Origin: Prorocentrum cordatum | Taxonomy: Eukaryota > Sar > Dinophyceae > Prorocentrales > Prorocentraceae | Length of the DNA: 64,000 bases | Assembly (NCBI GenBank): GCA_963575745.1 | Contig: CAUYUJ010019082.1 | Location: 62,001 to 126,000 of the forward strand | Direction of reading: 5' to 3' | Shown: positions 8,491 through 27,189 of the stretch, piece after piece | Layout: every line of letters begins with the position of its first letter | Position numbering within the stretch: position 1 is the stretch's first letter | The notes under the pieces: model-generated | Told to the model about the DNA's origin: nothing | What the model saw: the letters and a program-made list of their open reading frames with translations, nothing else | Database searches by the model: none | Position numbers and translations under genes: made by a program

Positions 8491-8556
8491 TTTTCCCGGA
8501 AAGGGCAAGAGCCCAGGGTTCTCTTTTAGTTTGTAAACAAGTCCCCCGGTGCCTGC
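8491..8556 (-). mobile_element. Family-A tail fragment ending at the gap
   Basis: TTTTCCCGGAAAGGG, then the AGGGTTCTCTTTTAG and CCCCCGGTGCCTGC words, nearly identical to the start of the copy at 9070. The assembly gap may represent a collapsed family-A copy. Confidence 0.6.
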
Positions 8557-8656
8557 NNNNNNNNNNNNNNNNNNNNNNNNNNNNNNNNNNNNNNNNNNNN
8601 NNNNNNNNNNNNNNNNNNNNNNNNNNNNNNNNNNNNNNNNNNNNNNNNNNNNNNNN
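8557..8656. other. Assembly gap, 100 N
   Basis: Exactly 100 undetermined bases, a usual placeholder for a gap of unknown size. It cuts the copia-like reading frame. Confidence 0.99.
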
Positions 8657-9066
8657 CCTGTGGTGCGGCAACTGGGCGGTAGCATGGCTACTCCTACGTG
8701 GCATACTGCGAAGTAATGATCTACAGCTCGCTGCACCGAGGGATCGCCCAGGTCGACGCACGTGGTCTTGTCTAAGTTGCCTCCTGAGGAAAGACCCCTT
8801 GAGAAGGCAAGCTCTGAAATACCACCCTCACCTCCACAAAGCTCCAACATATCCACGCAATTATTGTAACCATAGCACAGAGTAGCTACTATGCTATAAA
8901 TGTCCGCGTGTGTGTCGGGCATAGATGTGGGGAGGGTAAAGAGCAGGTCATCATCCTCATCTGAGCTTATCAGCTCAACAAGGACGTCAGTGCTCCAGGT
9001 CGCCATAAAATCCTGTCCGAGTCCCGACAAGTCGTCACCGCAATCATCGTTTCCGTCTTCAACGTG
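8657..9066 (-). CDS. copia-like polyprotein segment: methyltransferase-like domain (partial)
   Basis: Open frame from the family-A insertion junction (9066) down to the gap. An acidic lead (SSDEDDDLLF) precedes VDMLELCGGEGGISELAF (Gly-rich motif-I-like loop, 8821-8850). CVDLGDPSVQRAV and then VAMLPPSCRTTG (8657-8688) follow. A motif-I loop, an acidic turn and a P-P-x-C motif in this order resemble a class-I, cytosine-C5-type methyltransferase fold. The catalytic PPC is present only as PPSC, so activity is doubtful. It joins in sense to the linker ending at 10237 once the family-A insertion is removed. The domain call is inferred from motifs, and the 3' end is lost in the gap. Confidence 0.5.
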
Positions 9067-9069
9067 CTT

Positions 9070-10236: not shown

Positions 10237-10690
10237 TTGATACGGCGAGGCTTGATGCCTGCCTCCTTTTCGGCTTTGAGCCTTTCCTTCTGTTTGATAC
10301 GCGACTCCGTAGGTAAGACTTGCTCGTCTTGTTCACCGGTCTGTGTGCCCATCGTCGTTGATGAGTGGGTACATGCTTCAATCTCCAGAGTCGGGAGGGG
10401 AGAAGGACAGTCATCTATGATGACGCGTCTAGGCTTCTGTGGTGATTGAGTAGGCTCGTTTCCGAGCATGACCAGTTCCTCGGGCTGCCAGTACATCCGT
10501 GTACTGATGTTGGCAACCCCTGTAAGTAGTGGTGCATGCCAATCATATCCTGTTGGTTGACCGGCTACTGCGATATCCTGAATAACCGTGTTGGTATCCA
10601 GGTTGATTGCTACCACGTCGGATGACATCAGATCATTTCGGTCCTCTTTTGTTGGTCCGTCATATATAATGGATGTTGTGATCCGTACGT
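10237..10690 (-). CDS. copia-like polyprotein segment: linker
   Basis: Frame reading IIYDGPTKEDRNDLM, then DVVAINLDTNTVIQDIAVAG, YWQPEELVMLGNEPTQ and a basic end (ESRIKQKERLKAEKEAGIKP) cut by the family-A insertion. No catalytic motif was recognised. The LGNE codons form hairpin 10454-10467. It connects the unassigned conserved segment upstream to the methyltransferase-like segment downstream. Confidence 0.5.
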
Positions 10691-12437
10691 GTATAGGTGT
10701 TCAAGTATATCGGCACGTTTCCGTGCGTAGTGTTGCTTCCCAGGATTTTGTCGTTGAGGTGACGGATGAGTGTGATACGTGTCTGAGCTCGCCATTCGGC
10801 ATGTCGTACCGTTTGGCCGTACCAATCCAAAACATGTTGTGGTATCGCCAATTTGCACGTACATGCCCACAACTTAGAGCTAATCGGTATTGATGTGGCT
10901 ACCTGCATATAGGTACCACTCGGTGTATTGTCTTGCATATTAAACCTGATACCGAAATGACACAACCGCATCCATACTATTGTCAACTTGGGATCTTCCA
11001 GAGTATCACGTATTGGGGATCACTTCCAAACGTATCCTGGGGGGCCAAACACTATGATTTTCACGCGGAGCTTCTTGGCTTTTGTCAAAAGATTTTGAAT
11101 ACGAGACCAGTATGGGGCTACTCTCTTTCCTGGGGTTCGTACGTACCAGTCACCCGGGGTACTGACCCATATTAGAATTTAGTCCCCACTGATCACCGCA
11201 CCCAGGTAAACTGCGCCCACGGTCGTCATAAGCTCATTGTGGGAAATGCGATCACAGATATAACCTCGGATGCGGAGGTCAGCGCAAGCCTCTCTCGTAT
11301 CTTCGATGACGAAAGCTCTTTTACTATGGCAGGTTGCCCCGCTGTCCTTGTTACCCCCTGGCCTTTCGGCCATTAGGCGACGAGGGGGCAGCGTCGCCCT
11401 GCCATCTTCAAGGTAAAGAAGATGCGCCTGCAACGTCTGCCAGCCTCTGGGCTTCCCTCAGATACTGGAGCTCAGCGCTGCAGCGCGCGGTAGCCTCAGA
11501 GGCGGATTGCTCCGCAAACGTGGCCAGCATGGATGGATTGTCCATCAGCTGCTTCAATAAGCCTTTCGACCTTGCGTCGTTGACCGTCTGCAGCTCATGG
11601 CTCGAGTATCCCATCACTATCTTCCGGCGAGACCGTGCAGCATCCATGGGTACAAGTCCGCCATGCTGGGCCAGTGTCCTGGCTACGAAGCAATCGAACG
11701 TCTCCAGATCATCGATGCTGTCGCCTCTCATCGTCGCTTTGGAGAGTGTCTCGAGCACCCCCTTGGGCAGGTTTCCCTGCAATTGTTGGCGCTCTTGCGC
11801 AGGGGTCGGCTCGCCTGTCAGCGCCGTCTGGAACGATGTGGTACTTGTGCTTGAGGCGGGTTGCCCCGCGGCTCCGAATCGATCACACCTAATTGACAGA
11901 TGCCCTGATGGCAACTTCGCTGTTGGCATGATCTTGGAGCCCTCGGGGAGTTCCATCTTGACCTGTCCCTTCCCAGGGAATATCAGCTTCTCCTGGCCTC
12001 GTCCGAGCACAATAATAGTGCGCTTGTCCTGCATACTGTCGAGGCCCAGGATAGCTGGCAGGTCCTTGCCACAGCCTGACACAATATTCGTCTTGTACAA
12101 GTCGAGCTGGGTCGAACCCTGGCACTCGCAGGCAATGCTGAAGGTGCCCGCGGTATCAGCTGGGGCCGACCCCTCGCCTACCCCGTTCATGTTCAAACGA
12201 GAACGAGGTTCAAACGTACAAGGACGATTATGTGCCTCAGCAGCCCGGACAAACTTGCGGCTCGCATTTTCTCCCATTATGTTAGTCTTCGAGCCCACGT
12301 CTATGAGGATTGAATTTCCACCATCCTCAAGAAAGGTCTTACTAGGCTGCTTGATGTGCACTGTCTCCGAAGAGCCGGCTGCGCTTTCTAGCGGGTTTCC
12401 CCGCAATTCGGTCGTACTTCTTGGCGGGTTTCCCCGC
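10454..12437 (-). other. GNRA-type hairpins, group 1 (6)
   Basis: Sense strand 5'-arm, loop, 3'-arm: 10454-10467 GCTCG-GAAA-CGAGC; 11329-11342 GCGGG-GCAA-CCTGC (one G-U); 11767-11780 GCAGG-GAAA-CCTGC; 11856-11869 GCGGG-GCAA-CCCGC; 12391-12404 and 12424-12437 both GCGGG-GAAA-CCCGC. A degenerate relative with an extra base lies at 11388-11403. Confidence 0.9.
10660..11433 (-). pseudogene. copia-like polyprotein segment: conserved domain of unknown function
   Basis: A single frame with two isolated stops: TAA at 11179-11181 and TGA at 11020-11022. Around them it reads AFVIEDTREACADLRIRGY, MTTVGAVYLGAVISGD (stop) ILIWVSTPGDWYVRTPGKR, LRVKIIVFGPPGYVWK (stop) SPIRDTLEDPKLTIVWMRL, LWACTCKLAIPQHVLDWY. 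The sequence stays protein-like across both stops, so these look like point nonsense changes. I do not recognise a named family. The FGPPG and CKLAIPQHVLDW stretches could be an active-site loop and a helix of a second methyltransferase-like fold, which is a weak guess. The frame changes at both ends (near 11385 and 10690). Confidence 0.45.
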
Positions 12438-12487
12438 GTCGTGCTGGCACCTGGCCTTCCTGCGGCCATACGTGCCAGGTCGATGTA
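11408..12487 (-). CDS. copia-like polyprotein segment: retroviral-type aspartic protease-like domain
   Basis: Reads from just after TAG 12488-12490 to 11408. From the ATG at 12469, residues 54-66 read ILIDVGSKTNIMG, placed like the D-S/T-G active-site loop with Asp57 but with Val in the second position. LPAILGLDSM, LIFPGKGQVKMELPEGSKIM and PSGHLSIRCDRFG follow, the usual downstream part of this domain in copia-like elements. Hairpins at 11767, 11856, 12391 and 12424 lie in it or just upstream. The Asp-Val-Gly loop and the missing stop-free context make activity uncertain. It is in the same frame as the RING and KptA-like segments. Confidence 0.6.
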   Translation of the reverse strand, partial: YIDLARMAAGRPGASTTRGNPPRSTTELRGNPLESAAGSSETVHIKQPSKTFLEDGGNSILIDVGSKTNIMGENASRKFVRAAEAHNRPCTFEPRSRLNMNGVGEGSAPADTAGTFSIACECQGSTQLDLYKTNIVSGCGKDLPAILGLDSMQDKRTIIVLGRGQEKLIFPGKGQVKMELPEGSKIMPTAKLPSGHLSIRCDRFGAAGQPASSTSTTSFQTALTGEPTPAQERQQLQGNLPKGVLETLSKATMRGDSIDDLETFDCFVARTLAQHGGLVPMDAARSRRKIVMGYSSHELQTVNDARSKGLLKQLMDNPSMLATFAEQSASEATARCSAELQYLREAQRLADVAGASSLP

Positions 12488-12598
12488 CTAGAAGTACGAC
12501 ACGTTCTGGGCTTGAGCGCCCTGTTCCTCCCGCCAGTTGGCATACTCATCACGTGTGCTCGTGTACTGTTCGCGGGTAAAACGCCGCGTCAGCGTTCA

Positions 12599-14881
12599 GT
12601 ACGAATGAAGGGCAATGTCCTGTAATCCCTCATTCGTAAGGTGGTCCCTGTACTGCAACCACTCGTCGAACTCATTGTTCGTTGCTGAGAGCTCGACGGC
12701 CCTGACTGCTGTTGCCGCTGTCGCCACTGAAGAGTCTGAGAGATCAAACGACGCGCTCTCAGTCTCAGGATTATCGGCGTCCAACATGAACGTGGTGTGC
12801 GCATTGTCTATCTGGGTCTGGAAATGGCGGACACGCAGTTCTCGCAGCTGTTCAGGGCCCAGTGGCAGCTCGGCCCCACCCCCACTCTGGGGAGACATCG
12901 GAAGAGCCACCTGCCCGACTCCAGGCTCGTAATGAGTCGGAAGGATCGGCACAGGTGGGGTATTAGGCAGGTCTCCCTGCTGAGGCGCCGTCATCGGGAT
13001 AAGCTGGTCGAAGTATCCCGTCTCCATCGGCGTCCCCACCTCCTCCGGCGGGTGTCCCCGCTGCTGGGGCTGCGCTGTCTGCCTGTCCAGCATGCTGGCT
13101 GTCATCTCCTCCACCATGCTCCTCAACTCACGCAGCTCCCTCGCTGCCTGTTCGGGGGCCTGAGTGTAGGAGCCCGCCCATGGAAACGATGGCGCTATGA
13201 TGCCTGGCGCACGGCAGATAGCACATACTGGTTGCTGAGGATCTCCTTCTCGCTGATTCGCAACGTGGCCCACCACATTCGAGTTCCAGCACTCCTCGTG
13301 GAACAAGTGGTTGCACCTCAAGCGGTAGATGCTCTCCCTCGGCTGAAACTCTTCGAGGCATACCGCGCAGGTGTCTTCCATCCCAGTATAGATTTCCACA
13401 TCTGCCGCTCTAGGGCACACCCGCCGCCGCCGCTCCAGGACTGTTTCGGCGCCCAGGAAAGCAGCTGGAGGATCTCCTGCGGGAGCCAGTACCTCCGGCG
13501 CTACGGCGACCACTGCTGGAGGAGCTGCCGTTGTGGAGGCTGCGGGCGACACGGCTGGCGAGTTTCCTCGCATGGGTGAGCCTCTGTTCCTCGCGACCTC
13601 AAGTGCGGATGCACGTGCTTGGTCACGTGCGCTCTGTACTGCCTGCCTGCGCCTAAAGCACGCCTGTTGAGTGTGGTACGTCTGCCTGATGTAGTCTGGT
13701 ACTCCTCTACTGCCTGATGATATCGAATGGGCAGTGGGCTGGGCGGCCACCTCTGGCGTTGTCGGTGCAGGCATGAAAGCCATGTGCGGATACATGGGCT
13801 GATCACTGCAACGCACATTCGTGGGGCTATGAAACTGATCCGCCGTTTCGCGAACAAATCTGTTCGGGACTCTAGACGCATCTGGGTACAGTGGCGGATC
13901 CATTGGTGCTGGCGCTGGCCTCTGGCCCTGAGCCATGCTCGGATGAGCATTGAAGGCCGGGATGAAGGCTCGTTGCCGAGCAGGGCCACGTGGATTCGGA
14001 CCCTCTGGCTCCCAGGACCAGGCTGGCCTCCACCTCTGACCGCTCGGGTGGGGCAGGTTGTGACTCTGCGCCTGTTGTACCGCAGCTGCCACCCTTGCGC
14101 GGTAGTCATCAGGCACTCCAGCAGCAGTAGCTTGGCCAGCAAAAGGTCGGTGGTGTATTGGAGTGCGGGGCAGGTTTCCCTGCAGACTCGTTGGCGTGCC
14201 AGGTGGCATCATGTTCAAAAGAGCTGTACCATGCTCAGCTCTGGCCGCGGCGATCCGCTCCATGAGAGCGCCATTCGTGGCAGATCGACCAGGAGTCCCA
14301 AACGGAGACTGCGCTGGTGGCGTCGCCACTGGGGTCATGCCCCTCGGTGTGTGCATGCTATGCGAGGGGCTCCCAGGCATCTGCTCGAATCGAGCAGGCT
14401 CTCCGAAGATGCGGCCGAACGTCTGCGGGTCCCCCTGCGGTTCGGGCATGTCGTTTCTGAGTCCATTAACGGGCAAGTTTCCCTGCATGGCCTGACGGTT
14501 ACGCGTCACCATAGCGGACATAGCTCCCTGGCCTGCGGCCCAGGGATCTTGCTGGCACAGTCTGTCCGCTAGCTGTTCCACCTGCTCAGGATTTAGAGCG
14601 GCCGCGATCTGATCCAGATCTGAGGTGCTGAGGACCTGCCAAGATATGGCACTAGGCCCTTGGCTTGGAGCACGGCTTGGAGCCGCGCTTCCTGCCTCGC
14701 TCTCGTTGATCATAAGGATCTGGTGGATCTCGGGCTGGTTTCCCAGCACTGTTGGGCTGTAGTGGTCCCCTACTCCTCTTTGAACATGAACCGTATGAGG
14801 CTCATTGGCCTCTCGGTCAAGAGACCATCTGTGCTTGATGCTAGCTAGCACTGCCCGCAGCGTTCCACCTGTGCGGGGCCG
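12599..14881 (-). CDS. copia-like polyprotein segment: RING-H2 finger in Pro/Gln/Ala-rich linker
   Basis: Open from TGA 14882-14884 to TGA 12596-12598. Counting from the GTG at 14851, a RING-H2 finger occupies residues 495-546 (bases 13214-13369): Cys495, Cys498, Cys513, His515, His518, Cys521, Cys543, Cys546. All eight zinc ligands are present with a C-x2-C-x14-C-x-H-x2-H-x2-C-x21-C-x2-C spacing. RING-H2 proteins usually act as E3 ubiquitin ligases by binding an E2. The Leu502-type hydrophobics and the Pro541 before the last Cys pair support a folded finger. The rest is low-complexity linker with seven of the small hairpins. Downstream at 12596 and 12488 two isolated stops separate it from the protease-like segment in the same frame. 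Confidence 0.75.
12967..14747 (-). other. GNRA-type hairpins, group 2 (7)
   Basis: 12967-12980 GCAGG-GAGA-CCTGC; 13048-13061 GCGGG-GACA-CCCGC (loop not GNRA); 13558-13571 GCGAG-GAAA-CTCGC; 13968-13981 GCTCG-GCAA-CGAGC; 14170-14183 GCAGG-GAAA-CCTGC; 14473-14486 GCAGG-GAAA-CTTGC (one G-U); 14734-14747 GCTGG-GAAA-CCAGC. Confidence 0.9.
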
Positions 14882-14974
14882 TCATTGCGGCAGTGGAGAC
14901 GCGTGCAAGGCGATTGCCCATATATTCTGGGTTCCGCCATTGCTTTCCCGTGGAAGGTCCACGTGTGAAATATA

Positions 14975-16162
14975 CTACGGCTCAATAATGCCGTCTTTTC
15001 CTTCTGATAGGAGAACCCCATTGTCGGACCAGCAAAATACGATCCCGTCCTTCAGGGCTTGGTGCCAGTCCACAAAGATAACGATCTCGGAATCGGGGCC
15101 CCATCCACTCTGCACGCCGCGACGACGAAACGTCGGAACAAAGTGGATGTGTGATCGGCCTGTCCCTCTCTTCTTGGTGTTGTGTTCTTTACGACAAGAG
15201 AGGCCATACCACATGATGCCCTCAAAGGCTGTCCATCGTGTGCCACGCATGGCAACCTTGGGGTATGGGGCCGGTCTCCCGGCAGGGTTGTCGTGCAGTA
15301 CAATGTACTTGTACAACGACCAAGGGGCCTTGAGCGTCCACGAGTGCCCTTGCGAGGCACGGATGAATCTGTCGGATTTGCCAGAATCCCGCGCCAAGAC
15401 CTTAAACTGGAGACGCTGCTTCTCCTCACCATCCGACTCGCGGACGTGAACGATCGCCATCATGATGGCAGCCATCTGGTCAACCGTTCTGTCGTAGAAG
15501 GTCTCGGCGATGATCTTGGCCTCATCCAGTCTAGGGTTATACCCGTCCTGTCTCGCACGTCCGTTGTGCCACGGAAACTCGCGCACGAGCTCGTCGAGAT
15601 TGATCCATCCATCATGATCGTCGAACGTCTCAAGGCTCCACACGGCATTGTGTGGTCTGTCAGGCGCGTGTCTGCAGATCCTGTTGAGGCATTTGCTAAG
15701 CTGCTTGAGTGTATGATTACTTCTCGGAACAATACCTTTCTGCCTGCAGCTCTCCATGAATGCCTCCTCCACCGAGCGTATCGGTGGAAGATTCCGCAGG
15801 GCACGTCGATCATTGATCAAAGCCTGACTCCCGCTAGTAAAGGAAGTGTCCCCTGGGTGGTGCAGCCCATCCTCTGGCGGGCTTCCCCGCAACGGAGCCT
15901 CTGTCACCGAAGAGGCTGCGGCTCCTGCGGAGGAGGATGCAGCAGCTGCAGCGCCTGGCGGATTTCCCCGCAATGTTTCTCGGCTGGCGCTGCCCTTGAT
16001 CGCAGGCGCCCAGGTGCCCCTAGATAGAGCACCTTCCTCAGACCTCTTGGAGCGCGCCGCCGCAGGCGAGGCCGGTGTAGGGGTAAACCCTGCACGCTCG
16101 AAAGCCTTGGCCTTGCCGGCAATAGAGCCGCTACGGCTAGGCAGTCGTCTGCGGATTTCCAC
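14975..16162 (-). CDS. copia-like polyprotein segment: Tpt1/KptA-like RNA 2'-phosphotransferase domain
   Basis: 395-codon frame. Residues about 155-395 match the Tpt1/KptA layout: LSKCLNRICRHAPD (Arg164-His165, like LRH), DDHDGWINLDELV (winged-helix part), IRASQGHSW (Arg268, like RANQGHS), VAMRGTRW (like HGT), GRSHIHFVPTFRRRG (like GRxHVHLS with a later Arg) and CWSDNGVLLSEG (like SxNGVxLT). The Arg-His-Arg-Arg catalytic set appears complete. The family removes the 2'-phosphate from spliced RNA using NAD+, and some members ADP-ribosylate RNA ends. The region between the winged-helix part and RASQGHS is longer than usual. The N-terminal 150 residues are linker. TAG at 14975-14977 ends the segment, and the same frame goes on to the RING segment after one more stop. 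Confidence 0.8.
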   Translation of the reverse strand: MEIRRRLPSRSGSIAGKAKAFERAGFTPTPASPAAARSKRSEEGALSRGTWAPAIKGSASRETLRGNPPGAAAAASSSAGAAASSVTEAPLRGSPPEDGLHHPGDTSFTSGSQALINDRRALRNLPPIRSVEEAFMESCRQKGIVPRSNHTLKQLSKCLNRICRHAPDRPHNAVWSLETFDDHDGWINLDELVREFPWHNGRARQDGYNPRLDEAKIIAETFYDRTVDQMAAIMMAIVHVRESDGEEKQRLQFKVLARDSGKSDRFIRASQGHSWTLKAPWSLYKYIVLHDNPAGRPAPYPKVAMRGTRWTAFEGIMWYGLSCRKEHNTKKRGTGRSHIHFVPTFRRRGVQSGWGPDSEIVIFVDWHQALKDGIVFCWSDNGVLLSEGKDGIIEP

Positions 16163-16536
16163 GGAGTTGCCTAGGGTCGGGTCTCTGTGCCGGAGTTGCT
16201 CTAGTCGGTGACCTCAGCGTTTCAGAGCGAGGAATCTCCATCTGCACATCTAACCCGAGTTCCTCTGAGCGGGCCGACGTTTTCTGTCTCTCCCCCGAAG
16301 GCGTCCTGGGTGCAGGTGTTTCGCTCTTGGCCTTCGGTTGGAGCGGGGGCTTCCTTGCCCCCTTCATATAGATCTTTTGGGACTCCAGCAGCATGTGGCG
16401 AGTTGCCTCGCGGGTACGTTCGTCTGCTACTCGTCTGCGCTCCGCATCTGCTGCGGCTCGCTGGGCCATCTGTTCATCGTCATCCATCATCTCTGGCTGT
16501 TGGGCCTTACTGGGGACGCCAGGCGGGTTTCCCCGC
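15270..16536 (-). other. GNRA-type hairpins, group 3 (5)
   Basis: 15270-15283 GCCGG-GAGA-CCGGC, inside the KptA-like domain; 15877-15890 GCGGG-GAAG-CCCGC (loop not GNRA); 15958-15971 GCGGG-GAAA-TCCGC (one G-U); 16398-16411 GCGAG-GCAA-CTCGC; 16523-16536 GCGGG-GAAA-CCCGC. Confidence 0.9.
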
Positions 16537-16988
16537 ATTCCAGGAAGGCGATTGAGCGCATCTTTCTCTTCCTGGGTCATAGGCGCAAGTCCCCTCGGAG
16601 GCTGGACCTCCTCGGCCATCGGGCTCCTATGAGCCGTTGTTCCGAGACGACGGTTGATCTCGGCGATCTCTGCTTGAGTCATCGGAACCGACGGTGGATG
16701 ACCCTCCTTGGCAGGAGTGCGGCCTCTATTCGGGCTCAAGCCCTCGTTGTGCTCCTGGAATGGCTCTGAGCACGGCGCACAGACTGCGTTGAGCCTGTAT
16801 AGCTTGCGCGCCGCAATGACATTCCGCAGCTGCGTCCGTACTACCTCTATCTCAGGACTACGAATGTTCGTCGCGAGCTGGTAGCCACCCCGCATGGACC
16901 TGCCTTGGGCACCCCTGTAAGCTGGGTTGCCATTTCCAAAAACAGAATGCTCACCCGTTTGACGCCTCGGGTCATTGTAGGCGAGCAA
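16137..16988 (-). CDS. copia-like polyprotein segment: Pro/Arg-rich linker
   Basis: Begins LLAYNDPRRQTGEHSVFGNG and includes PEIEVVRTQLRNVIAARKLY, AEINRRLGTTAHRSP and a Met/Arg/Glu-rich helix. No enzymatic domain was seen. The frame joins the upstream segment by a one-base shift in a run of five G (about 17000) and the KptA-like segment by another shift near 16150. Hairpins 16398 and 16523 lie inside. Confidence 0.55.
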   Translation of the reverse strand: MLAYNDPRRQTGEHSVFGNGNPAYRGAQGRSMRGGYQLATNIRSPEIEVVRTQLRNVIAARKLYRLNAVCAPCSEPFQEHNEGLSPNRGRTPAKEGHPPSVPMTQAEIAEINRRLGTTAHRSPMAEEVQPPRGLAPMTQEEKDALNRLPGMRGNPPGVPSKAQQPEMMDDDEQMAQRAAADAERRRVADERTREATRHMLLESQKIYMKGARKPPLQPKAKSETPAPRTPSGERQKTSARSEELGLDVQMEIPRSETLRSPTRATPAQRPDPRQLRGNPQTTA

Positions 16989-16989
16989 C

Positions 16990-18320
16990 TGACCCCCTCG
17001 TCGAGCGGCATGCTCTGATGGGCCTGCTTGCCTCCATTCGCGTGGGAGCCGTGCTTGAGGGTGGGGGTCGCCCCCAAGGCGTGGATCCTGGCATGCTCAT
17101 CAGATGAAGCCGCCGACGCAGCCTGAGCAGGAACCGGCAGGGGTTCCTGCGGGGCCGCAGGCGGCGCATCTTGGGCAGGCAGGTCTCCCTGCTGACTGGA
17201 GTCCGGCACAATTGGCTCTTGTGCAGGTGGTGGTGCGTCAGGACTGTCGGGGCTGAAATCCACCTCCTCGTCTTCACCATTGGCTTCCATCATGAGGATG
17301 GTGGTCTCGTCCTCGCACATCCCGCATCCATCACCCTCTTCATCTTCTGACATAGGGTTGCCGATGACGACGGTCATCGGCCCAGCCGGGACGGGCAGGT
17401 TTCCCTGCTGTACAAGCGTCTGAGCATCGCTTGGCTGCCCCGGCGGCGGCGGTACGGGAGTCGGCTCAGGCTCGTTACCGAGCATAGCGTGCGCCTCGGG
17501 ATAATCATAGTCATGCGTAGGCTGCCCGATAATATCTCGCATGGCCGCGTGGTTGGGCCGTAATCCCGCCGCCTGGAGACCCCATCCTGGCGGAGGAAGA
17601 GCCTGACCACGCATGGAGATGGCCCTTTCAAGAGCTTGGCGCCATCTCCCTCTGGAATACCACGCATGTTGTTGCACGTCCTCAGGGTGCACACTGTCGA
17701 TGAGAGTAAGGGCCGCCAGCACTAGCTCCGAGTCGTCACAGGCATCGGTGTCTTGTAGCATCATGTGGCCGCTCTCGACGCTCTCTTGACTCTCGGGATG
17801 CGCTACGACCAATACAGCGTGTATCTGCATGAGGGTCTGCAGTATCGCGTGCGGTCCGTACTCGCCTGGAGCGAGCGAGCCAGGTGGTACGTATGGGTTC
17901 CCTGGCGCGCCCGTAGTGAATGCTTGATATTCTAATTCCATCAGATCGGCATAGAATGGAGGATATACTGGAGTGGGCCTGTTTCCAGGCATAAGGTCGG
18001 GGTGATGTCGAAGGTTGTAGTCAACCTCCGAAGGCGAGGCCTCAACAGTGACATCCTCGTCACTGCTCTCGTAGGCCATGATGTTGCCTGGGTTACCGAA
18101 CATCCAGTCGAAGAAAGATAAGGGCTGGTTTCCCAGCGCACCATTCTCCACAGGCGTAAGCTCGATATTTCGGAGAACAAACCTGCGGAGGTACTCGAGG
18201 TGGTACGCGTACAGTCCATGGCCGTGCGCCTCGAGCTCATCCAAGTTGTCCATGCTGCTGGCCCAAGTGAAAAATATCTGCTCCACGGCCTCAGAATCTT
18301 GGAGGCTCAGATATTCAATA
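16990..18320 (-). CDS. copia-like polyprotein segment: acidic/Pro-rich linker
   Basis: Reads EYLSLQDSEAVEQIFF at the start, then SSMDNLDELEAHGHGLYAYH, long acidic stretches (YESSDEDVTVEASPSEVD, GNPMSEDEEGDG) and Pro/Ala/Gln-rich sequence. No domain was recognised. It follows the CCHC knuckle after a one-base shift near 18320. Hairpins 17179, 17395, 17470, 17977 and 18124 are inside, four of them as G-N-x-P and one as G-D-L-P. Confidence 0.55.
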
Positions 18321-18463
18321 CTGGTTCACTTGAGCCGAAATGGACTTCGGTCAATCTGCCCTTTCCATTTCCCTTCGCTGGACAATCTTTTACAAGATGA
18401 TCGGTACTATCACACTCATGGCACTTTAGGATCTGGCCGTCTCTACCTCGCGGGTTTCCCCGC
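17179..18463 (-). other. GNRA-type hairpins, group 4 (6)
   Basis: 17179-17192 GCAGG-GAGA-CCTGC; 17395-17408 GCAGG-GAAA-CCTGC; 17470-17483 GCTCG-GTAA-CGAGC; 17977-17990 GCCTG-GAAA-CAGGC; 18124-18137 GCTGG-GAAA-CCAGC; 18450-18463 GCGGG-GAAA-CCCGC. Confidence 0.9.
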
Positions 18464-18526
18464 CTACCTTTACCTTTGCCTGAAGTATCTCCACGGCCTT
18501 TTCCACGGCCTTTCCCCCCGAAAAAA
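18312..18526 (-). CDS. copia-like polyprotein segment: CCHC zinc knuckle
   Basis: Sense reading is Lys/Gly/Arg-rich (KGRGKGRGDTSGKGKGRRGN), then KCHECDSTDHLVKDCP. The C-x2-C-x4-H-x4-C knuckle occupies 18382-18423, with FGSSEPVLNI and a stop after it. Zinc knuckles of this type bind retroelement RNA at the end of Gag. The segment is cut on its 5' side by family-A element A2. Hairpin 18450-18463 lies just before the knuckle. Confidence 0.8.
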
Positions 18527-20130
18527 ACATGATGGACCCACGAACCCGGAAAGGGATATAGACATGCGCAGCATGGTCACGTTTTCACGATACCCAACTG
18601 GGCGACATCTCACAAAACATCCCACGAGACACCCCGCGAAACATCCCACGAGACACCTCGCGAAACATTCCACGAGACACCTCGCGAAACTTTCCACGAG
18701 ACACCCCGCGAAACATTCCACGAGACACCCCACGAAACATTCCACGACGACACCCCACGAAACATTCCACGAGACACCCCACGAAACATTCCACGGGGGT
18801 GGCGACTGGGTTTTTGTCGTGCTGGGTGTCGTGCGGGGGTGTGGTCGTGCTGGGGGGTGTCGTAACTGGGGGGTGGTCGTGCTGGGGCGTGGTCGTGCTG
18901 GGGCGTGGTCGTGCTGGTGCGTGGTCGTGCTGGGGTGGGGTCGTGCTGGGGTGTGGTCGTGCTGGGGTGTGGTCGTGCTGGGGTGTGGTCTTGCTGGGGT
19001 AGGGTCGTGCTGGGGTCGGGTCGTGCTGGGGTGTGGTCGTGCTGGGGTATGGTCGTGCTGGGGCGTGGTCGTGCTGGGGCGTGATCGAGCTGGGGAGTGG
19101 TCGTGCTATGGTGAGGTCGTGCTGGAGTGTGGTCGTGCTGGTATGTGGTCTGGCTGGGGTGGGGCCGTGCTCGGGTGGGGGGTCGTGCTGGGGTGGGGTC
19201 CTGCTGGTGTGTGGTCGTGCTGGGGTGTGGTCGTGCTGGGTGGGGTCGTGCTTGGGTGGGTCGGGTTTTTTTTTTGGGGGCCTGGTGTGTGGTCGTTCTG
19301 GGATGTGATCGTGCTGGGTTGTGGTCGTGCTAAGGGTGGGGTCGTGCTGGGGTGGGGTCGTGCTGGGGTGGGGCGTGCTGGGGTGTGGTCGTGCTTGGGT
19401 GTGGTCCGTGCTGGGGTGTGGTCGGCTGGGGGTTGTCGTGCTGGGGGGGGGTGTCCGTGCTGGAGTGGTCGTGCTGGGGAGTGGTCGTGGCTGGGCCGTG
19501 GTCGTAGGCTGGGGCGTGATTCGTGCTGGGGTGTGGTCCGTGCTGTGGGTGAGTCGTGGCTGGGTTGGTCGTGCTGGGTGTGTCTGCTGGGTGGGCCGTG
19601 CTGTCTTGGGTCGTGCTGGGGTGTGGTCGTGCTGGGGTGTGGTCGTGCTGGGGTGTGGTCGTGCTAGGGTGGGGTCGTGCTGGTGTGGGGTCGTGCTGGG
19701 GTGTGGTCGTGCTGGGGTGTGGTCGTGCTGGGGTGTGGTCGTGCTGGGGCGTGGTCGTGCTGGGGTGGGGTCGTGCTGGGGTGTGGTCGTGCTGGGGAGT
19801 GGTCGTGCTGGGGTGTGGTCGTGCTGGGGGGTGGTCGTGCTGGGGGGTGGTCGTGCTGGGGGGGTGGTCGTGCTGGGAGGTGGTCCTCAGAATTCAGGTC
19901 CCCAGGAGAGGACAATCTATAACACAAAACAAGCGTTTCGCTCGAGACATCCTCACCATTTTCTGAAAAACAATCGTTTCGCTCGAGACATCCTCAAATT
20001 TTAATTCGCCGGCCTCCTTCGACCTCGTTATTTATCAGGGAAAAAATTCGCCGGCCTCCTTCAAGCAGGCACCGGGGGATTAGGTTTACCAACTAAAAGA
20101 GAACCCTGGGCTCTTGCCCTTTCCGGGAAC
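18527..20130 (+). mobile_element. Family-A element A2, inserted in copia-like coding sequence
   Basis: Head at 18528 (ATGATGGACCCACGAACCC), 24-bp array of CATTCCACGAGACACCCCGC units (18610-18800), a long 16-bp array (18805-19880, about 65 units), GAATTCAGGTCCCCAGGAGA, two CTCGAG boxes, AATTCGCCGGC repeats, and a tail ending CCCTTTCCGGGAA at 20129. The coding frame reads into the element from the right (DDQYDEM) and resumes on the left (KGRGKGRG). AACAT occurs at both outer junctions. Confidence 0.85.
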
Positions 20131-20702
20131 ATCTCATCATACTGATCATCTGAGAGCCTCTGGAGGAAAGCCGAGATGCCTCGTCCATTCAACCTACGGC
20201 AATCCCGTTTGCCTTTACCTTTTCCTTTGAAGCTCCTCCGTATCCTCCTCCTAACACGACGCACTGGTTTTCGTGTGAATCTCCTCCACCTCCGCTTTGC
20301 CTGTTGTAATAACAAGAACAGGTGTTCGGCACGCTGGTTGCCACCTTCAATTTGCATGATATCTGACCAATCTAAAGGTTCAATACCATCTGATGATATG
20401 GTGTCGGTGTCGGTGCCGGAGTCGAAACCGTCATTTCCTAGGTAGGTGGATACACCGTCGTTTAGGGGATTCGCATCACCCCATAAGGAACGGTGTGGTT
20501 GAGGTTCTCTAGGAGGAGGGCTGGTTGCCCAGCTTGGTCGTGGTCGATCCCCTGTTAGTAGGGCAGTAGACTCTCCAAGATCGTCGGCCCATATGCTTGA
20601 GGGCCCGTTGCCGGGCTGAGCTTCAGTGGTTAAGGTAGTATAGAAATTTCCACTACCAGTTCCCCTTCCCCTTCCAAACACTGCTGCTATGTTTGAATAA
20701 CC
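20131..20702 (-). CDS. copia-like polyprotein segment: acidic then basic region between Gag and knuckle
   Basis: Open from the inverted-end insertion (YSNIAAVFGRGRGTGSGNF) to the family-A junction (LSDDQYDEM). The middle is acidic (DGFDSGTDTDTISSDGIE), followed by an Arg/Lys cluster (RRWRRFTRKPVRRVRRRIRR, about 20225-20290) and FKGKGKGKRDCRR. A nucleic-acid-binding or nuclear-targeting role is a guess from composition. Hairpins 20520 and 20603 lie inside, one out of the usual frame. Confidence 0.55.
20520..20616 (-). other. GNRA-type hairpins, group 5 (2)
   Basis: 20520-20533 GCTGG-GCAA-CCAGC (read as Trp-Ala-Thr-Ser, a different frame); 20603-20616 GCCCG-GCAA-CGGGC. Confidence 0.9.
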
Positions 20703-20742
20703 ACCAAGCAATCGGGACCGAACCCACCGCGTCCTCCGAGGG

Positions 20743-21280
20743 TAGTCAGGGCTGGCTGCATCATGTGTTACGGTGTTGCTGTCATGTAATGTTTGTGGCT
20801 GGTCCACAATGTACTACTGACGTCGCGCAGCGATGCAACAAAATGTGTTGTGTTGCGCGCTTTGCAGGCGTGTACCACTATAAGCGGTCCTCACGCATAC
20901 CAGTGGTGAAGTAGGTATTGCAGTCAATGTCTGCAGCGCCGCCAGTGGCTTGCCCAAAATCGGGACTGACGGTGAAGGTACTTCTCATGCTAAGCTCAAG
21001 AGAATGCGCGTTGCAAATTGGGCATGACTTACATTGCCGCCCGTCCAAACGTCAAACTCGTTTTCTCTTAAGGGCGCAATTCTACACGTTCACGGAAAAA
21101 CTTCACGACGAACCCCACACATAGTCACCGATACCCACTCTTGCGACGACGCCAATCGTTTTTCAGAACGCAATTCGGATGCGACACGCGCCAGCACATC
21201 GAACGTGAATGCGGACTCTGCCAAAACAAACCTTCCGTGCACCCCCCCTGGAGGCCACGAACCAGGCGAAGACTGCGCTG
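20743..21280. other. Inner left flank of the inverted-end insertion
   Basis: No gene or repeat recognised. Confidence 0.4.
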
Positions 21281-21950
21281 ACATGGTCTGGGCGGCGGCG
21301 CGCGGCCTGTGCTACGAAGGCCTTCGGTGGAACTCCCCATAACTCCGCGAACCGCATGAAGAAAAAACTGCAATGGTTTGGGCGGCGGCAAGCGGCCTGT
21401 GCTTCAAAAGCCCTGTGGTGACGTTCTATGTGGGGCCACGAACCGTGTCAGGGCGTGCTGACATAGTCCACGTAGCGCAAAGCGGCCTGCGCCACAAAAG
21501 CCTTCGGCGGGGTGCCGCGTGGGGGCCCCGAGCTGCAAGAACTATATACTTAAATAGCCCAGCCAACGGCATGCGGCCTGCACCGGGACAAAAAACTTCG
21601 GCCGAGCTCCCCATGGGGCACCGAACTGCGCGAGGGGGGTGCTGGATTGGATTGGGCGGCGGCATGCAGCCAGTGCGACAGAAGCCTTCGGCGTAGCATC
21701 CTGAGGAGCAACGGGCCGCGTGAGAGAGTGCCGCACTGCTGTCGGTGGCGACGCGCGGCGCGCGCAACGCAAGCCTTCGGCGCAAACCCCCAAAAGGGCC
21801 ACGGCGCGCGCAAGAATTGCGTTGAACATGTCTGGTCGGCGGCGCGGCCTGCGGAGCAAAAAAAAACGCGGCCGAACTTCCTATGGCGCCACGAACGGCG
21901 TGAATAAAGACCTGAAGCAGTCTGGGCGGCGGCATGCGGCCCGCGCTACC
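21281..21950. repeat. Degenerate ~90-bp satellite, block 1
   Basis: Units spaced 85-95 bp with CTGGGCGGCGGC, GCGGCCTGTGC, GCCTTCGG and GGGGCC(A/G)CGAACC in that order. About seven divergent units. Confidence 0.75.
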
Positions 21951-21954
21951 AGAA

Positions 21955-22268
21955 AGAAAAGGAAAAATGGGAAAAAAAAAAAAAAATAGAAAAAAAAAAA
22001 AAAAGATAAAGAAAAAAAACAAAAAAAAAAAGAAGAAACAGAAAAAAAAACATAAATAAAAAGAAAAAAAAAAAAAAAAGAAAAAAAAAAAAAAAAAAAG
22101 GAGTGTGGGTACGGGGGGCGGGGGGGGGGGGTGGGAAGAAAATAGCGTAAAAATGAAAAAAAAAACAGAGAAAAAAGAGAAAAAGAAAAAAAAAAAAAAA
22201 CAAAAAAAACGCAAAGAAAAAAACAGAAAAAAAAGAAGAAGAAAAGAAACAGAAGAGGAAAAAAAAGG
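21955..22268. repeat. Purine-rich, A-homopolymer tract
   Basis: Long A runs with scattered G (GAAAAAAA words), interrupted by a G-rich patch at 22100-22135. It splits the satellite. Apparent Phe-rich frames on the minus strand are its translation. Confidence 0.9.
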
Positions 22269-22269
22269 C

Positions 22270-22690
22270 TTCGGCGGGGCCCCCTTCGGGGCCACAAGCC
22301 GCGTGAATAAAAAACTCGGGTGGACTGGGCGGCGGCGCGCGGCCTGTGCTGCAAAGACCTTCGGTGGAACTCCACATGGGGCCGCGAACTTTGCGAGGGG
22401 TGTCTGGGCGTCGGCAAGCGGCCTGCGCTGCGAAGGCCTTCGGAATGCTATCCTATGGGGCCGCGAATCGCGCGAGGGGCGCGCTGGCGTGGTCTGGGCG
22501 GCGGCGCGCACCCCTTGCTGCAAGAATGTTCGGTGCAACGTCCCTCCAGGAGCCGCGAACCGCGCGGGGTGCGCGCTGAATTGGCATCGGGCAGAAGGGA
22601 GCGGCCCGTGCTACAGGGGCCTTCGGCGAAGCCCTATGGGGCCACGAATCGTTCGAGAGGTGCGCGGAAACTGCATTGGCGGAGGCTCCT
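22270..22690. repeat. Degenerate ~90-bp satellite, block 2
   Basis: Four to five units of the same satellite, starting directly after the purine tract. Confidence 0.7.
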
Positions 22691-23919
22691 AAGCGAAGAC
22701 CGACCACGCAGGAGAGAAGAGGATAGATGATGACGGACTGAAGCGGCCTGGAGGAGGAGGCGGTGGTAGAGGAGGGGGAAGGCAGGAGATGAGGCGTTCA
22801 GCGCTCCGGGCTGGGCTCTCAACGAAGACCCAACGGACAAGAGAATTAAGAAGAAAACTACGGCCTCCAAAAGCTCCTGTACACTACTCTTCGCATGGTT
22901 CAAATGCCTCCGCGTCGCTCCCGCGGCGTGCGAACGACGGCGCGAAGACACGCGGAGTCCGCTGCAACGCAATCCCAAGGCTTCCAAAACGGCCCATTGA
23001 TCCCCATTGGGCGCCAGAGAGTCGCCAAGATGCCCACCGAAAGAAAAAGCACGGAATCCTAATATGGCACTGCTACATGACTTCAAAACAGCTCCAGGAC
23101 GGCCCACGTCCCCGCTCAGGCTCCACAAGCTCATTCTCGCGCACCCAGTGTGGCGTAATCTGGAGGCAACATCGGTTGACTCCCCCGCCCACACCCCGAA
23201 CGACACGACAACTCTGGGACCCAAACAGCACTTTGGATCCCCAGTCGCAACAGAATCGAAGGCCCCAGGGGGCCCTGCCGAGCCCGTGCCAGGCCCCCCA
23301 GACATGTCCAAAACCACTGCCGAGGGGAGTCCGGACCCACCGCCGCGGGAGCGCCCATGGGGGCCGCGGTGGGTTCGGACTCCCCTCGGCAGTCTTCTCA
23401 GACGTGGAAAAAAACGATGCCGAGGGGAGTCCGGACCCACCGCGGGGGGGGGGGTCCGGACCCACCGCGGGCCCATGGGGGCCCTCGCGGAGCCTCCACT
23501 GGGCCCCCCCGCAAGCCCTCTGGCCCCCACCCTCAACCCTGCCCGCCGCTCCCGTCTCTGCCCCTCCCCCCCCTCCCTTCTGCTCCTGAGCCCCCCTCGT
23601 TGATCCTTCCTCCAGCGCCGTCCGCCCACAGTGTCAGCTCCGAGCCTCGCCAGAATATAGTGTGACTGGGAGGTGCTGCTCGCTCAAATGCTGAAAGACA
23701 GCGCAGTCCGAGCGCCAATCATCGGAGGCGCCCCTCGCCCGCATCATCCTTCCAGAAATGACCTCGGTCATCGCTCCTTCCCATCGCGCTGGTCCATTTG
23801 TCCGTTTCTTCCCTTCTGCCCCTCCAAAACAAAATAAACCTCGCGAAAAAAACCAACTATGTCTGAACGCAGCGCGAAACATTGACAAGACCGCCCGACA
23901 CATACGAGTCCGCATGCGA
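22691..23919. other. Satellite interruption with GC-rich palindromes
   Basis: No gene recognised. At 23318-23397 the words GCCGAGGGGAGTCCGGACCC and its near complement face each other around CCCATGGGGG, giving a ~30-bp-arm palindrome. A further copy of the arm starts at 23418. Part of the arm (CCGAACCCACCGCG on one strand) is also the core of the terminal repeats of this insertion. Confidence 0.6.
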
Positions 23920-25060
23920 AATCTACCACAAGGGCCTTCGGTGGAGCCCCCCATGAAACCACCGACCGCGCGAAGACCGCGATGAAGTGGCATGGGCGGC
24001 GGCGAGCAGCCTGCGCCACAATATTCTTCGGTGGAACTCCGCATGGGCCCACGGACCGCGCGAGGCAACGCTGAATTGGCTGGGGACGGCGGCATGCGGC
24101 AGGCGCTCCAAATTTGACGACTGAGCACGTGAGCAATGTTGCTGAAATGGTCTGGACGGCGCAATGCGACACGTGCCACAAACGCTTTCGGCGGGGTTCC
24201 GTATGGGGCCACGAACTGCGAGGGGTGTGTACTCAATGGTCTGGGCGGCGGCGTGCGGTTTGTGCCTGAAGACCTTTCAATGGAGTTTCCGAATGCGGCC
24301 GCAAATCGTGCGAGAACAGCTGAAGTGGTCCGGGCGGCGGCGCGCGGCCTGCGTCACAAGCGTCTTCGGCGGGGCCCTTTTTTATGGCGCCACGAAACAC
24401 ATGACAAGCGACTTGAAATAGTCTGGGCGGCAACATGTGCCCTGTGCGACAAAACCCTTGGGGCGCTGCGTATGGGGCCGCGAACCGCCCGATGGGCCTG
24501 CTGCAACGGTCTGCTCGGTGGCATGCGTCCAGTGCAAAACAAAAACATGCTGTAGACCTCCCCGGGGCTGCGCGAATCGCGTTCTGAATGAACTGACATG
24601 GCCTGGGCGGTGGCCAGCGGCCTATGCCACAAGGCATCAGGTGGCGTTCCCTATGGGGGCACGAAAGGCGCGGCGGGTGCGACGACATGGCCTGGACGCG
24701 GCGCCAGGCCCGCGCCGCGGGGGTCGTCGATGAAAATCAATAAATATGGAGCCGCGAACCGCGAGATGGGCGGCCTCAAATAATCTGGGCCGCGGCGTGC
24801 GGCCTGTGCTCTGCGGGATTTCGGTTGAGCTCCTCATGGGGCCACGCAACCTGCGAACGTTGATCTAGAATGGTCGGGGAGGCGGCGCGCGACCACATCG
24901 CGTCGGCAGGGTTGCACATGGGGCCGCGAACCGCGCGATGGGCGCGCTAGAATTGTCGCGGCACCGGCGTGCGGTTTGCACCACGGGGACTTTCAACAAC
25001 AAATCGCTCGGGGACAACGAACGATGCGCGGCGCGAGCGGCGCGCTGAAATTGCCGTGGC
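23920..25060. repeat. Degenerate ~90-bp satellite, block 3
   Basis: About twelve units with the same word order as blocks 1 and 2. Confidence 0.7.
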
Positions 25061-25772
25061 GCGGCCACAAAACGAAGGCATCCCACGCAATATAGAAGGG
25101 GATGGATGATGAGGAAACGAAGCGGAACGAACAAAAACAAAAACAGGAAGAGGAGGAGGAGGAGACGAAGAGGATAGGAGAGACAAACAAAAGGGATGAG
25201 GCGAAAAGCGCCGCGAATTCAAAGCGCAGACCTGACGCGCAGGAGGGCCGGGAACAAAAACGAAACAAATCGAGGGACACCCTCGACCAGCGCGCGCGCG
25301 CCGCGCGCACGCCGGGCAAACCAGCGGCACGCCAAGCAAGCGAGGCGCAGCGGCCGCACCTGGCACAGCACACGCACGAAACGAAAGTCACACCAACATA
25401 CAAGCCGCGCCAATCAGATAGCGGGATCACCCGCAAACGCGCGCGCATGATGCTGGCACCGCCCCTCGCTACAAGGAGCCTCCGATCCGCGACGAGCGAT
25501 CGCGAGGCCTCCAAAAGCACCTCGTACTAACTGTTTCTGGACAATGGTGTTGGTTCGGAACGGGGCCTGGCTCTGGAGGGCGAGCGCGGACACAAAATTC
25601 CCTGGCTAGCAGCGGCAGCAGTGAAAGCTGCCGAGCTCGCGCGCGCGCAACAAAAATCGACTGCGCGTGCGGACACGTTGGCATACGCTGGTTCACCTCG
25701 CCTCTGCCAGTGCCCAACAGGGGGCTCTACGTGCGCCCGTCCAGGGCACGCCGCGGGCCACGGCCCTCGACG
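25061..25772. other. Inner right flank of the inverted-end insertion
   Basis: No gene recognised. The Gag frame stays formally open to 25527, but the protein-like part ends at about 25815, so this is read-through into the insertion. Confidence 0.45.
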
Positions 25773-25812
25773 CCCTCCAAGGGCGCGGTGGGTTCGGTCC
25801 CGATTGGTTGGT

Positions 25813-26657
25813 AAGCATTGAATGTTGCCAGGACACCGTTCTGACAAATGGCTTATCGAACGCATCCTCTCGCACAACTCGTCATACTGTTGTTGTGTTC
25901 GGGGCATTTGGTGGTTAAGTGGCTGCAAGAGTTGCATGGCTCTCTGGTTGCCGACGCCTAGGGCGCGGAATAGGATAGTAGTGAGCAATTGGAAGTTGGG
26001 AAGGTCAAGCCCCACCGACTGTGCCTCAAGACGGGCCATCTCGAACCGAGTGAGGGTTACATCGATTCGTTCTCCGTGAGGCACATGAAAGTCGATGAGC
26101 TGTGTGCCTGAAGTGAGCTGGCGCTCATCTTCCAGGCGTTCGAACTTCATGCTTAGGAGGAACATGATGTAGGTCACTGGGTCGGTGTGGACCCCATCGA
26201 TGTCAGCACCATAATTTATAATGTCAGGCGGTACCCTCATGGCGAGTGTCCTCGCTAGGCCACCCAGGCCGCGTTGTATGGCGGCCGCTTGGGCCTGTGG
26301 CGTCATACGTCCGCTTGTGACGTTGAGCCACGCGTTGACCTCATAAACGTACTCGCGGAAAGGCACGTTGCCTTGAGGGTCCCAGTATGGGCCATGTGTT
26401 TGCCCATCGGCGCTGTTGTCTCCTCGGCGCATGTGTCCGATTGTCGCCCCCGGCGCAAACCAGATGATGGCGAAGATAACCAACCCAAGGCCGTGAAGAT
26501 ATGGGTGGTTATCAGGCGCGTTGCCGCGCTGGGGTAGCGCCTTGTCAAGTCTTCGAGGCGCTTTATCTTGCGGGTCTCCCCGCCTCTGCTTCAAGTGCTG
26601 CGCTCTTGACTCGTTGCCGAGCGGTTGGTAGTAGCGTAGTGATGAAGCGTATATGGT
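25813..26657 (-). CDS. copia-like polyprotein: Gag-like N-terminal part
   Basis: Protein-like from ETTREVRRLDNNIGTIYA (about 26690) and open from the Leu/Met at 26594. From 26594, residues 33-52 (LHGLGLVIFAIIWFAPGATI) form one hydrophobic, possibly membrane-spanning segment. Residues 65-245 are helical: FREYVYEVNAWLNVTSGRMT, AAIQRGLGGLARTLAMRVPP, YIMFLLSMKFERLEDERQL, RIDVTLTRFEMARLEAQSV, QLLQPLNHQMPRTQQQYDEL. This looks like the capsid part of Gag in dinoflagellate copia-like elements. An in-frame TGA lies upstream at about 26717, so the true start is unsettled. Hairpins 26516, 26570 and 26609 sit at the N-terminal end. It is cut at 25812 by the inverted-end insertion. Confidence 0.6.
26516..26622 (-). 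other. GNRA-type hairpins, group 6 (3)
   Basis: 26516-26529 GCGCG-GCAA-CGCGC; 26570-26583 GCGGG-GAGA-CCCGC; 26609-26622 GCTCG-GCAA-CGAGT (one G-U). Three hairpins within 107 bases at the start of Gag. Confidence 0.9.
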
Positions 26658-27189
26658 ACCAATGTTGTTGTCTAGACGTCGTACCTCTCGTGTTGTTTCT
26701 TGCTCTTGAATTGATCATCGTAAACGTAGTTGGAGTGGTGGCGCAGGGTGGTAGTTGGTCACGAAGATCGTGCCGGATAGCGTGAGGATAAGAAGAGCAA
26801 GAGCTGACCACACGAGAGTGCGGCCAGCTCCGCTACCAAGTCTGAAATGACTATGGTAGGTCAAATAGCATCCGATTCCATGGGAAGCGGATGGCATATA
26901 GCGTCCAATGTCATGCTGTGTTAGTTCAGTATGGGGAGTGGACGGATGAGATAGGATAATATCGATGTAATGATCTTTCCAGCACATAGCGAACACACGC
27001 AGTGTCCGGGCAAATAGGGCGCGCGTGCCTTGAGCCAAAGGCAACGGCGCGCGAGCTATACTCCCGATCCTATATAGCATCTCCCAAAGAGCTACCCTTA
27101 AAGTTGCTGAGGCTCGGGCCAGGCTCGGGTGCTGCGCATGTGCTGGGAGGGCGGGTGGGAGAAAGCGAGACGGCTTGCGGGCGGGGAAG
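26658..27189. other. Region upstream of Gag-like frame
   Basis: On the minus strand a short frame encodes VWSALALLILTLSGTIFV, a hydrophobic segment ahead of Gag. CTATATAG occurs at 27069-27076. An LTR might be expected here, but no terminal repeat could be shown. Confidence 0.35.

Follow-up and report, generated by a model that had tools for sequence, protein, structure and literature searches.

The window analysed here, a 64,000-nucleotide stretch of 58% GC from the genome of the dinoflagellate Prorocentrum cordatum (assembly GCA_963575745.1, contig CAUYUJ010019082.1, positions 62,001 to 126,000 of the forward strand), contains a probable copia-type long terminal repeat (LTR) retrotransposon whose coding strand carries a swarm of very small hairpins, most of them closed by GNRA tetraloops. 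The question raised by this locus is why a protein-coding element should hold so many of them, and what might read them. An earlier note made from the letters alone had described the swarm in 10454-26622 and had proposed either RNA-level elements or a self-spreading mini-palindrome. Our comparisons demonstrate a strict 15-nt module, GC-NNN-GNRA-N'N'N'-GC-C, on the minus (coding) strand of 10454-26622, which occurs in a single orientation, pairs between its arms, is independent of codon phase and is selectively conserved at the nucleic acid level.

Under a looser rule allowing one G.U pair and loops of the form G..A or G..G, the coding parts hold 34 sites that start with GC, and 33 were kept after exclusion of site 17122 (loop GTCG). 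Pairing is perfect at 29 of these, whereas four contain one G.U pair (26622, 15971, 14486 and 11342); the loops are GNRA in 29 cases, GACA in three and GAAG in one. When only perfect hairpins with five pairs and a four-base GNRA loop are counted, 10401-26650 contains 28 on the minus strand and none on the plus strand, which bears out the single orientation relative to coding claimed before, while 1-10400 and 26651-61900 together contain one on the plus strand and none on the minus strand. Twenty-five of the 28 start with GC (GC-starting hairpins number 28 if any GNNA loop is allowed), and a near-invariant C directly follows the 3' arm in 25/28. The earlier totals (29 plus two hairpins, 28 of 31 loops GNRA, an end at 26622) agree with ours within counting choices, but the stems fall into 12 types and not ten. 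In 10401-18500 one module occurs every 300 nt or so, and the spacing there is a little more regular than random placement would give (P=0.013). Beyond the coding parts, the same loose loop rule gives perfect GC-starting hairpins on the minus strand at 22278 (GAAG, in an insert), 56031 (GGAG), 57608 (GGGG), 61946 (GCAA, without the trailing C) and 63296 (GCAG). The 33 sites are given below as 5' arm, loop and 3' arm; codon phase was read from open frames of 150 codons or more, which cover 30 of the 33.

26608..26622, minus, GCTCG-GCAA-CGAGT, codon phase 2; one G.U
26569..26583, minus, GCGGG-GAGA-CCCGC, phase 2
26515..26529, minus, GCGCG-GCAA-CGCGC, phase 2
26241..26255, minus, GCGAG-GACA-CTCGC, phase 1; within the Gag core, possibly chance
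20602..20616, minus, GCCCG-GCAA-CGGGC, phase 2
20519..20533, minus, GCTGG-GCAA-CCAGC, phase 3
18449..18463, minus, GCGGG-GAAA-CCCGC, phase 2, in an 89-codon frame
18123..18137, minus, GCTGG-GAAA-CCAGC, phase 2
17976..17990, minus, GCCTG-GAAA-CAGGC, phase 2
17469..17483, minus, GCTCG-GTAA-CGAGC, phase 2
17394..17408, minus, GCAGG-GAAA-CCTGC, phase 2
17178..17192, minus, GCAGG-GAGA-CCTGC, phase 2
16522..16536, minus, GCGGG-GAAA-CCCGC, phase 2
16397..16411, minus, GCGAG-GCAA-CTCGC, phase 3
15957..15971, minus, GCGGG-GAAA-TCCGC, phase 2; its G.U in 1/20 copies
15876..15890, minus, GCGGG-GAAG-CCCGC, phase 2; loop variable between copies
15269..15283, minus, GCCGG-GAGA-CCGGC, phase 1; within the Tpt1-like region
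14733..14747, minus, GCTGG-GAAA-CCAGC, phase 2
14472..14486, minus, GCAGG-GAAA-CTTGC, phase 2; its G.U in 1/20 copies
14169..14183, minus, GCAGG-GAAA-CCTGC, phase 2
13967..13981, minus, GCTCG-GCAA-CGAGC, phase 1
13557..13571, minus, GCGAG-GAAA-CTCGC, phase 2
13047..13061, minus, GCGGG-GACA-CCCGC, phase 2; regular GAAA form in 18/20 copies
12966..12980, minus, GCAGG-GAGA-CCTGC, phase 2; GAAA form in 15/20 copies
12423..12437, minus, GCGGG-GAAA-CCCGC, phase 2
12390..12404, minus, GCGGG-GAAA-CCCGC, phase 2; trailing T here, C in 19/20 copies
11855..11869, minus, GCGGG-GCAA-CCCGC, phase 1
11766..11780, minus, GCAGG-GAAA-CCTGC, phase 2
11669..11683, minus, GCCAG-GACA-CTGGC, phase 1
11501..11515, minus, GCGGA-GCAA-TCCGC, phase 1; unchanged in 20/20 copies
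11328..11342, minus, GCGGG-GCAA-CCTGC, frame unsure; same G.U form in 17/20 copies
10712..10726, minus, GCACG-GAAA-CGTGC, frame unsure
10453..10467, minus, GCTCG-GAAA-CGAGC, phase 2

Such a density is not produced by base composition or by codon usage. The stretch 10401-18500 holds 21 GC..GNRA hairpins, compared with a mean of 0.025 and a maximum of one in 200 dinucleotide shuffles, and the 9,998 nt of coding sequence hold 22 full modules against 0.008 expected (maximum one in 1000 shuffles) and none in the opposite direction. Shuffling the order of codons in the open frames left 0.008 where 20 are observed, and redealing synonymous codons with the protein unchanged left 1.27 (maximum five) against the same 20. 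The dinucleotide and same-codon controls that the earlier note had proposed therefore gave counts far below those observed, and the swarm is real and stronger than had been claimed. The two repeat inserts that interrupt gag (6.4 kb with the borders used in the count) contain no full module, and 25619-20814 has no site of the pattern at all. None of the eight Rfam matches listed in 10000-27000 attained the gathering score.

Pairing was also assessed without circularity, by choosing sites on the fixed letters GC...GNRA...GCC only and leaving the three inner stem positions unconstrained. This choice gave 26 sites in the coding parts (27 with slightly different coding borders), of which 22 are fully Watson-Crick, three have one G.U pair and one is unpaired (17767), so that 25/26 pair when G.U is included and 98.1% of stem cells are paired. 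Elsewhere on the same strand 0/14 such sites are fully paired, and on the plus strand 0/16 are paired in 1-9400 and 0/13 in 26801-61400; the plus strand of the coding parts has one fixed-letter site with one G.U pair under one border set and none under the other. Stem covariation over the 26 sites reaches 0.600, compared with 0.132 after shuffling; slid controls do not exceed 0.134. Folded in context, the hairpins have a mean pairing probability of 0.82 in sense RNA and 0.47 in antisense RNA.

Other copies of the element in the same genome (4.13 Gb, 21,875 contigs) provide a further comparison. Of 1054 candidate copies, 40 were scored (93-100% identity) and 20 were compared; one of these, L009, equals the window sequence exactly, so 19 were used for rates. 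All 20 contain full modules in the sense direction (17-23 per copy) and none in antisense, and at the 27 sites of 10401-18500 every aligning copy (11 to 20 of the 20) has the module or a lightly altered form, several sites that are irregular in the window being regular in most other copies. For copy C669, which was followed through the pieces L029, L016 and L030, strict-pattern sites pair in 3/3, 23/23 and 9/10 cases, respectively, while the antisense pattern sites number 0, 1 and 0 and none of them pairs.

The copies reveal a sharp footprint, in tests that treat cells as independent. Rates of change are 0.4-2.0% for stem bases, the opening G of the loop and the trailing C, compared with 3.08% elsewhere (raw changes 59/5927 in the module and 4276/138963 elsewhere), whereas loop positions 2-4 change at 6.3, 2.8 and 3.4%, and the four bases immediately 5' of the module at 3.9-5.5%. 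The mean for module columns, 0.995%, lies below the 2.63% of GC-matched masks (lowest of 5000: 1.42%) and below all three codon positions outside modules (2.5, 2.9 and 3.9%). The same holds in the 3' noncoding tail, which has 6, 3 and 3 stops in the three frames of L030 and was compared in eight further copies, seven of them covering it: its three modules show 1/286 changes (0.35%) against 86/2635 (3.3%) around them (Fisher P=0.003), with 3/72 in their loops. Since module columns are more conserved than their surroundings in both coding sequence and noncoding tail, selection very probably acts on a nucleic-acid hairpin and not on a peptide. The proposal of RNA-level elements is well supported by the single orientation, the use of all codon phases, the stem covariation and this conservation. 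The emphasis on GNRA as the key feature held only in part: nearly every site has a GNRA loop, but from copy to copy the loop letters drift while the stem, first G and trailing C are held.

Two further observations concern these copies. Loop changes among L010-L028 are mostly A to G (50/62), with loop position 2 above background, and RNA editing before reverse transcription is one possible source. L009 (G000:C9455) is an 8.1-kb stretch 100% identical to 10401-18500, which has either been duplicated very recently or entered the assembly twice. An excess of stem changes that keep pairing through G.U, hinted at by the four G.U pairs of the window (4/4), was not upheld among copies.

The conserved hairpins lie mostly in open frames, and a repeated peptide, xGNyP, might be thought the selected object with the hairpin as its by-product. 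Among the 30 framed sites phase 2 predominates (22, with six in phase 1 and two in phase 3); phase 2 sites encode the peptide xG[ND]yP, which occurs 20 times in the frames, 17 times with all five pairs. This bias probably reflects a peptide that linkers tolerate. Selection on the peptide alone is ruled out, as eight of the 30 sites lie in other phases, the hairpins are lost on synonymous redealing and noncoding sequence conserves the module too; we give this explanation practically no weight as a sole cause. The ten homologous proteins, compared as protein alignments in which the codons of the relatives are not visible, contain nine module-compatible peptides in the sense direction against 0.48 expected and one in antisense against 0.45, distributed as four in P0008, three in P0002 and one each in P0001 and P0010. 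One such peptide occupies the same position behind the protease in both the window and P0008, and window site 12967 probably shares its position with that of P0010; at these shared positions the residues flanking GN or GD differ on both sides.

These alignments also bear on a self-spreading 15-nt mini-palindrome that entered many times at a frame-neutral length. Fifteen bases do preserve the frame, the hairpin-compatible peptides of relatives stand at other places and phases, and the 3' half of the hairpin at 20519 adjoins a stretch absent from P0002 and P0005. Mobility is nevertheless disfavoured because hairpin-free relatives align at the protein level with no internal gap at 26516 (P0003), 12424 and 11767 (both P0008), although a two-residue gap adjoins the hairpin at 11767; the alignment at 20602 is ambiguous. 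Moreover, the 27 sites of 10401-18500 are common to the copies that align, no target-site duplication stood out, the stems differ with both arms altered together, and no antisense module occurs. In the copies and protein alignments compared, neither the clean empty sites nor the target duplications of mobile palindromes such as the Rickettsia palindromic element (RPE) or a miniature inverted-repeat transposable element (MITE) stood out, and we regard this origin as very improbable.

A reader of the hairpins may be sought in the element itself, a large LTR retrotransposon, probably of copia type, whose copy C669 measures about 16 kb. The single 16-kb polyprotein of the earlier note gives way to about 10 kb of coding sequence, split by two repeat inserts at about 20684-25828 and 18526-20129; C669 lacks the first and probably also the second. 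Its parts in the window are as follows.

26839..27104, minus, 5' LTR of about 266 bp, matching the 3' terminal repeat of seven copies that extend past the repeat (265-269 bp, 90-94%)
25829..26714, minus, Gag N part and core, with homologues P0001-P0007; insert border from copy comparison
20684..25828, no strand, repeat-rich insert within gag, with no full module and the one GAAG-loop hairpin at 22278; in L029 the equivalents of 25828 and 20683 are at most 12 bases apart
20130..20683, minus, C part of Gag, Arg-rich over about 20190-20315, with stretches at 20315 and 20252
18526..20129, no strand, satellite-type insert without the hairpin module, 90% identical to 31329-32936
18382..18423, minus, CCHC zinc knuckle (CX2CX4HX4C) in the 89-codon open frame
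14978..16213, minus, open frame with Tpt1/KptA domain (PF01885, E=6.9e-21 on 14975-16162)
12599..14881, minus, open frame with RING finger (Pfam matches PF17123, PF13639)
11411..12487, minus, protease-like open frame, with homologues P0008-P0010

In C669, 38 bases separate the equivalent of 20128 from the start of L016; the second insert is probably missing there, because just these bases remain between the last match of L029 and L016. The 5' end, as seen in the window and L029, shares terminal repeats of 265-275 bp with the seven copies that reach past the repeat at their 3' end; with L030, which ends inside the repeat, the shared length is 145-151 bp. This downstream piece also holds the 3' noncoding tail, the start of the terminal repeat and a weak copia reverse transcriptase match (PF07727 at 3941-4366, E=8.3e-4, 19.5 bits, below the curated 31.6); the integrase-like frame upstream of it was assigned by eye and has no Pfam match. 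We take the open frame 11411..12487 to be protease-like; it has three homologous proteins and no Pfam or PDB match. The search with the Gag region 25527-26594 gave seven proteins among 8000 scored, that with the Tpt1 frame gave no relative among 8000 scored candidates, Gag had no match in the phage collection, and viral_contigs and genome_contigs yielded no usable relatives at the DNA level.

The genomic RNA of this element would bear at least 35 copies of one cis-acting hairpin, spread over its coding sequence and, as other copies show, also over the noncoding 3' tail. Each would be a candidate site for a protein that reads the GC base of the stem, the loop-closing region and the trailing C, while any two or three intervening pairs are tolerated. 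The best candidate reader may be the element's own Gag, in which a C part with an Arg-rich stretch is followed by a CCHC knuckle, and many equivalent sites along the RNA could allow Gag to coat and compact it selectively, as with the dispersed packaging signals of small RNA viruses. We favour packaging because a suitable basic domain and knuckle are encoded, because the sites are many, of the same sense and rather evenly spaced, and because similar arrays exist in small RNA viruses; multiple stem-loops with a common motif along genomic RNA, which characterise dispersed packaging signals, are present here at the sequence level. That the hairpins are packaging signals read by Gag has, in our judgement, a little less than an even chance. 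The fuller proposal, in which a whole-RNA array of at least 35 hairpins of the same grammar, under selection exceeding that on protein linkers, acts as a dispersed code by which the element's own Gag recognises the RNA for packaging, is put forward more tentatively still.

Several observations weigh against packaging by Gag. Hairpins placed in shuffled flanks fold nearly as well as in their own (pairing probability 0.72), and native context therefore adds little to their folding. The loop letters, which are the usual contact of nucleocapsid (NC) or of lambda N, vary among copies and drift near the background rate, although nearly all sites are GNRA, and we cannot account for the constancy across sites and the drift between copies together. 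The flank column at -5 is also low in changes (1.4%), stem changes that keep pairing through G.U show no excess (20/49, expected fraction 0.376, P=0.37), and six of the ten homologous proteins lack any hairpin-compatible peptide.

The main rival keeps the RNA element and changes its reader. A host factor acting in export, stability, translation or silencing escape of the long unspliced RNA would suit the same sequence evidence, and so would a protein of any kind that recognises the GC base of a stem together with the trailing C; the extension of the array into the 3' noncoding tail fits it too. The window contains no full module beyond the element parts tested, albeit with no host gene identified there, and we know of no host reader of such hairpins; we consider this explanation unlikely, though it deserves serious attention. 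Direct RNA-RNA contacts are improbable. GNRA loops are known docking motifs, and those at 29/33 sites could dock into stems of other hairpins and so compact or dimerise the RNA, but it is the loop letters that drift, in contrast to the conserved stem, first loop G and trailing C, and CCTAAG, half of the 11-nt GAAA receptor, has no occurrence in 10401-18500. A signal in DNA, with the sense cDNA strand folding into hairpins during reverse transcription or replication (for strand initiation or a single-stranded DNA protein), would account for the orientation bias equally well through its single-stranded intermediate. Nothing specific speaks against it, although GNRA loops favour RNA, and we hold it to be quite improbable.

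Known systems offer partial parallels to packaging by Gag. The boxB hairpin of phage lambda has a stem of five pairs and acts in antitermination, and retroviral psi hairpins lie in the 5' leader region, whereas those of the element are scattered over its genome. For MS2, picornaviruses and the hepatitis B pregenome, multiple packaging signals that are dispersed over the RNA and have a common recognition motif have been described (PMC6281560); they resemble the present array in consisting of many stem-loops over genomic RNA with one shared motif, but their loop motifs are loose (xxYA in the loop for MS2), whereas the 15-nt module is strict, its stem base and trailing C being fixed. The element differs further in being a retrotransposon, in having the loop as its least conserved part among copies and in that binding of its hairpins is a proposal. 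An Arg-rich lambda N peptide binds a hairpin of GNRA fold (PMC12027372, preprint), a pairing similar to the one proposed here in loop fold and type of partner, but boxB has a five-base loop and requires a U-A closing pair; instead of its GNRNA pentaloop, the element has a four-base loop, GNRA in 29/33. NC zinc knuckles bind tetraloop hairpins, and retroviral genomic RNA thus likewise combines Gag knuckles with such hairpins (PMC7599994). Rickettsia palindromic elements also place palindromes within coding sequence, but they are about 150 bp long and lie in many host genes (PMC10969869), while the present module has 15 nt, one orientation and no sign of mobility. No report of a strict 15-nt module running through a retrotransposon was found among the titles and abstract starts listed from open-licence literature. 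To our knowledge, no retroelement has a comparable strict and countable array. Dispersed stem-loop signals as such are already known; a strict retrotransposon module with a selection footprint appears to be new.

Other features of the locus deserve mention. The element carries, in its open frames, a Tpt1/KptA RNA 2'-phosphotransferase domain, an RNA-repair type of enzyme, together with a RING finger. Its Gag relatives P0001 and P0005 are filed under a Halieaceae metagenome-assembled genome (fragment) and a Pyramimonas data set, which contamination by an alga carrying the element may explain. A satellite-like repeat family with 16-bp units occurs in both orientations across the window and inside the element (18526-20129, 31329-32936, 40640-41770 and 9068-10064 among others). 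A second copia-type element with broken frames, in which we presume a reverse transcriptase and RNase H, occupies 61400-64000 on the minus strand; it has a perfect GC..GCAA..GC hairpin that lacks the trailing C (61946), and the two hairpins reported there before are weaker, 62501 being without GC ends and 63861 having a GGCA loop and one G.U pair.

Packaging signals of the dispersed kind are usually degenerate and difficult to demonstrate, whereas the module of this element is strict and can be counted, does not depend on codon phase, also occurs in noncoding sequence and shows as a conservation footprint among copies within one genome; its binding and function are therefore testable with short RNAs. 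If the packaging reading is true, dispersed RNA signals would extend to LTR retrotransposons, and selection on RNA structure would exceed that on the encoded linkers. A repeated signal thus seems to reside in the RNA of the element itself, possibly one for packaging.

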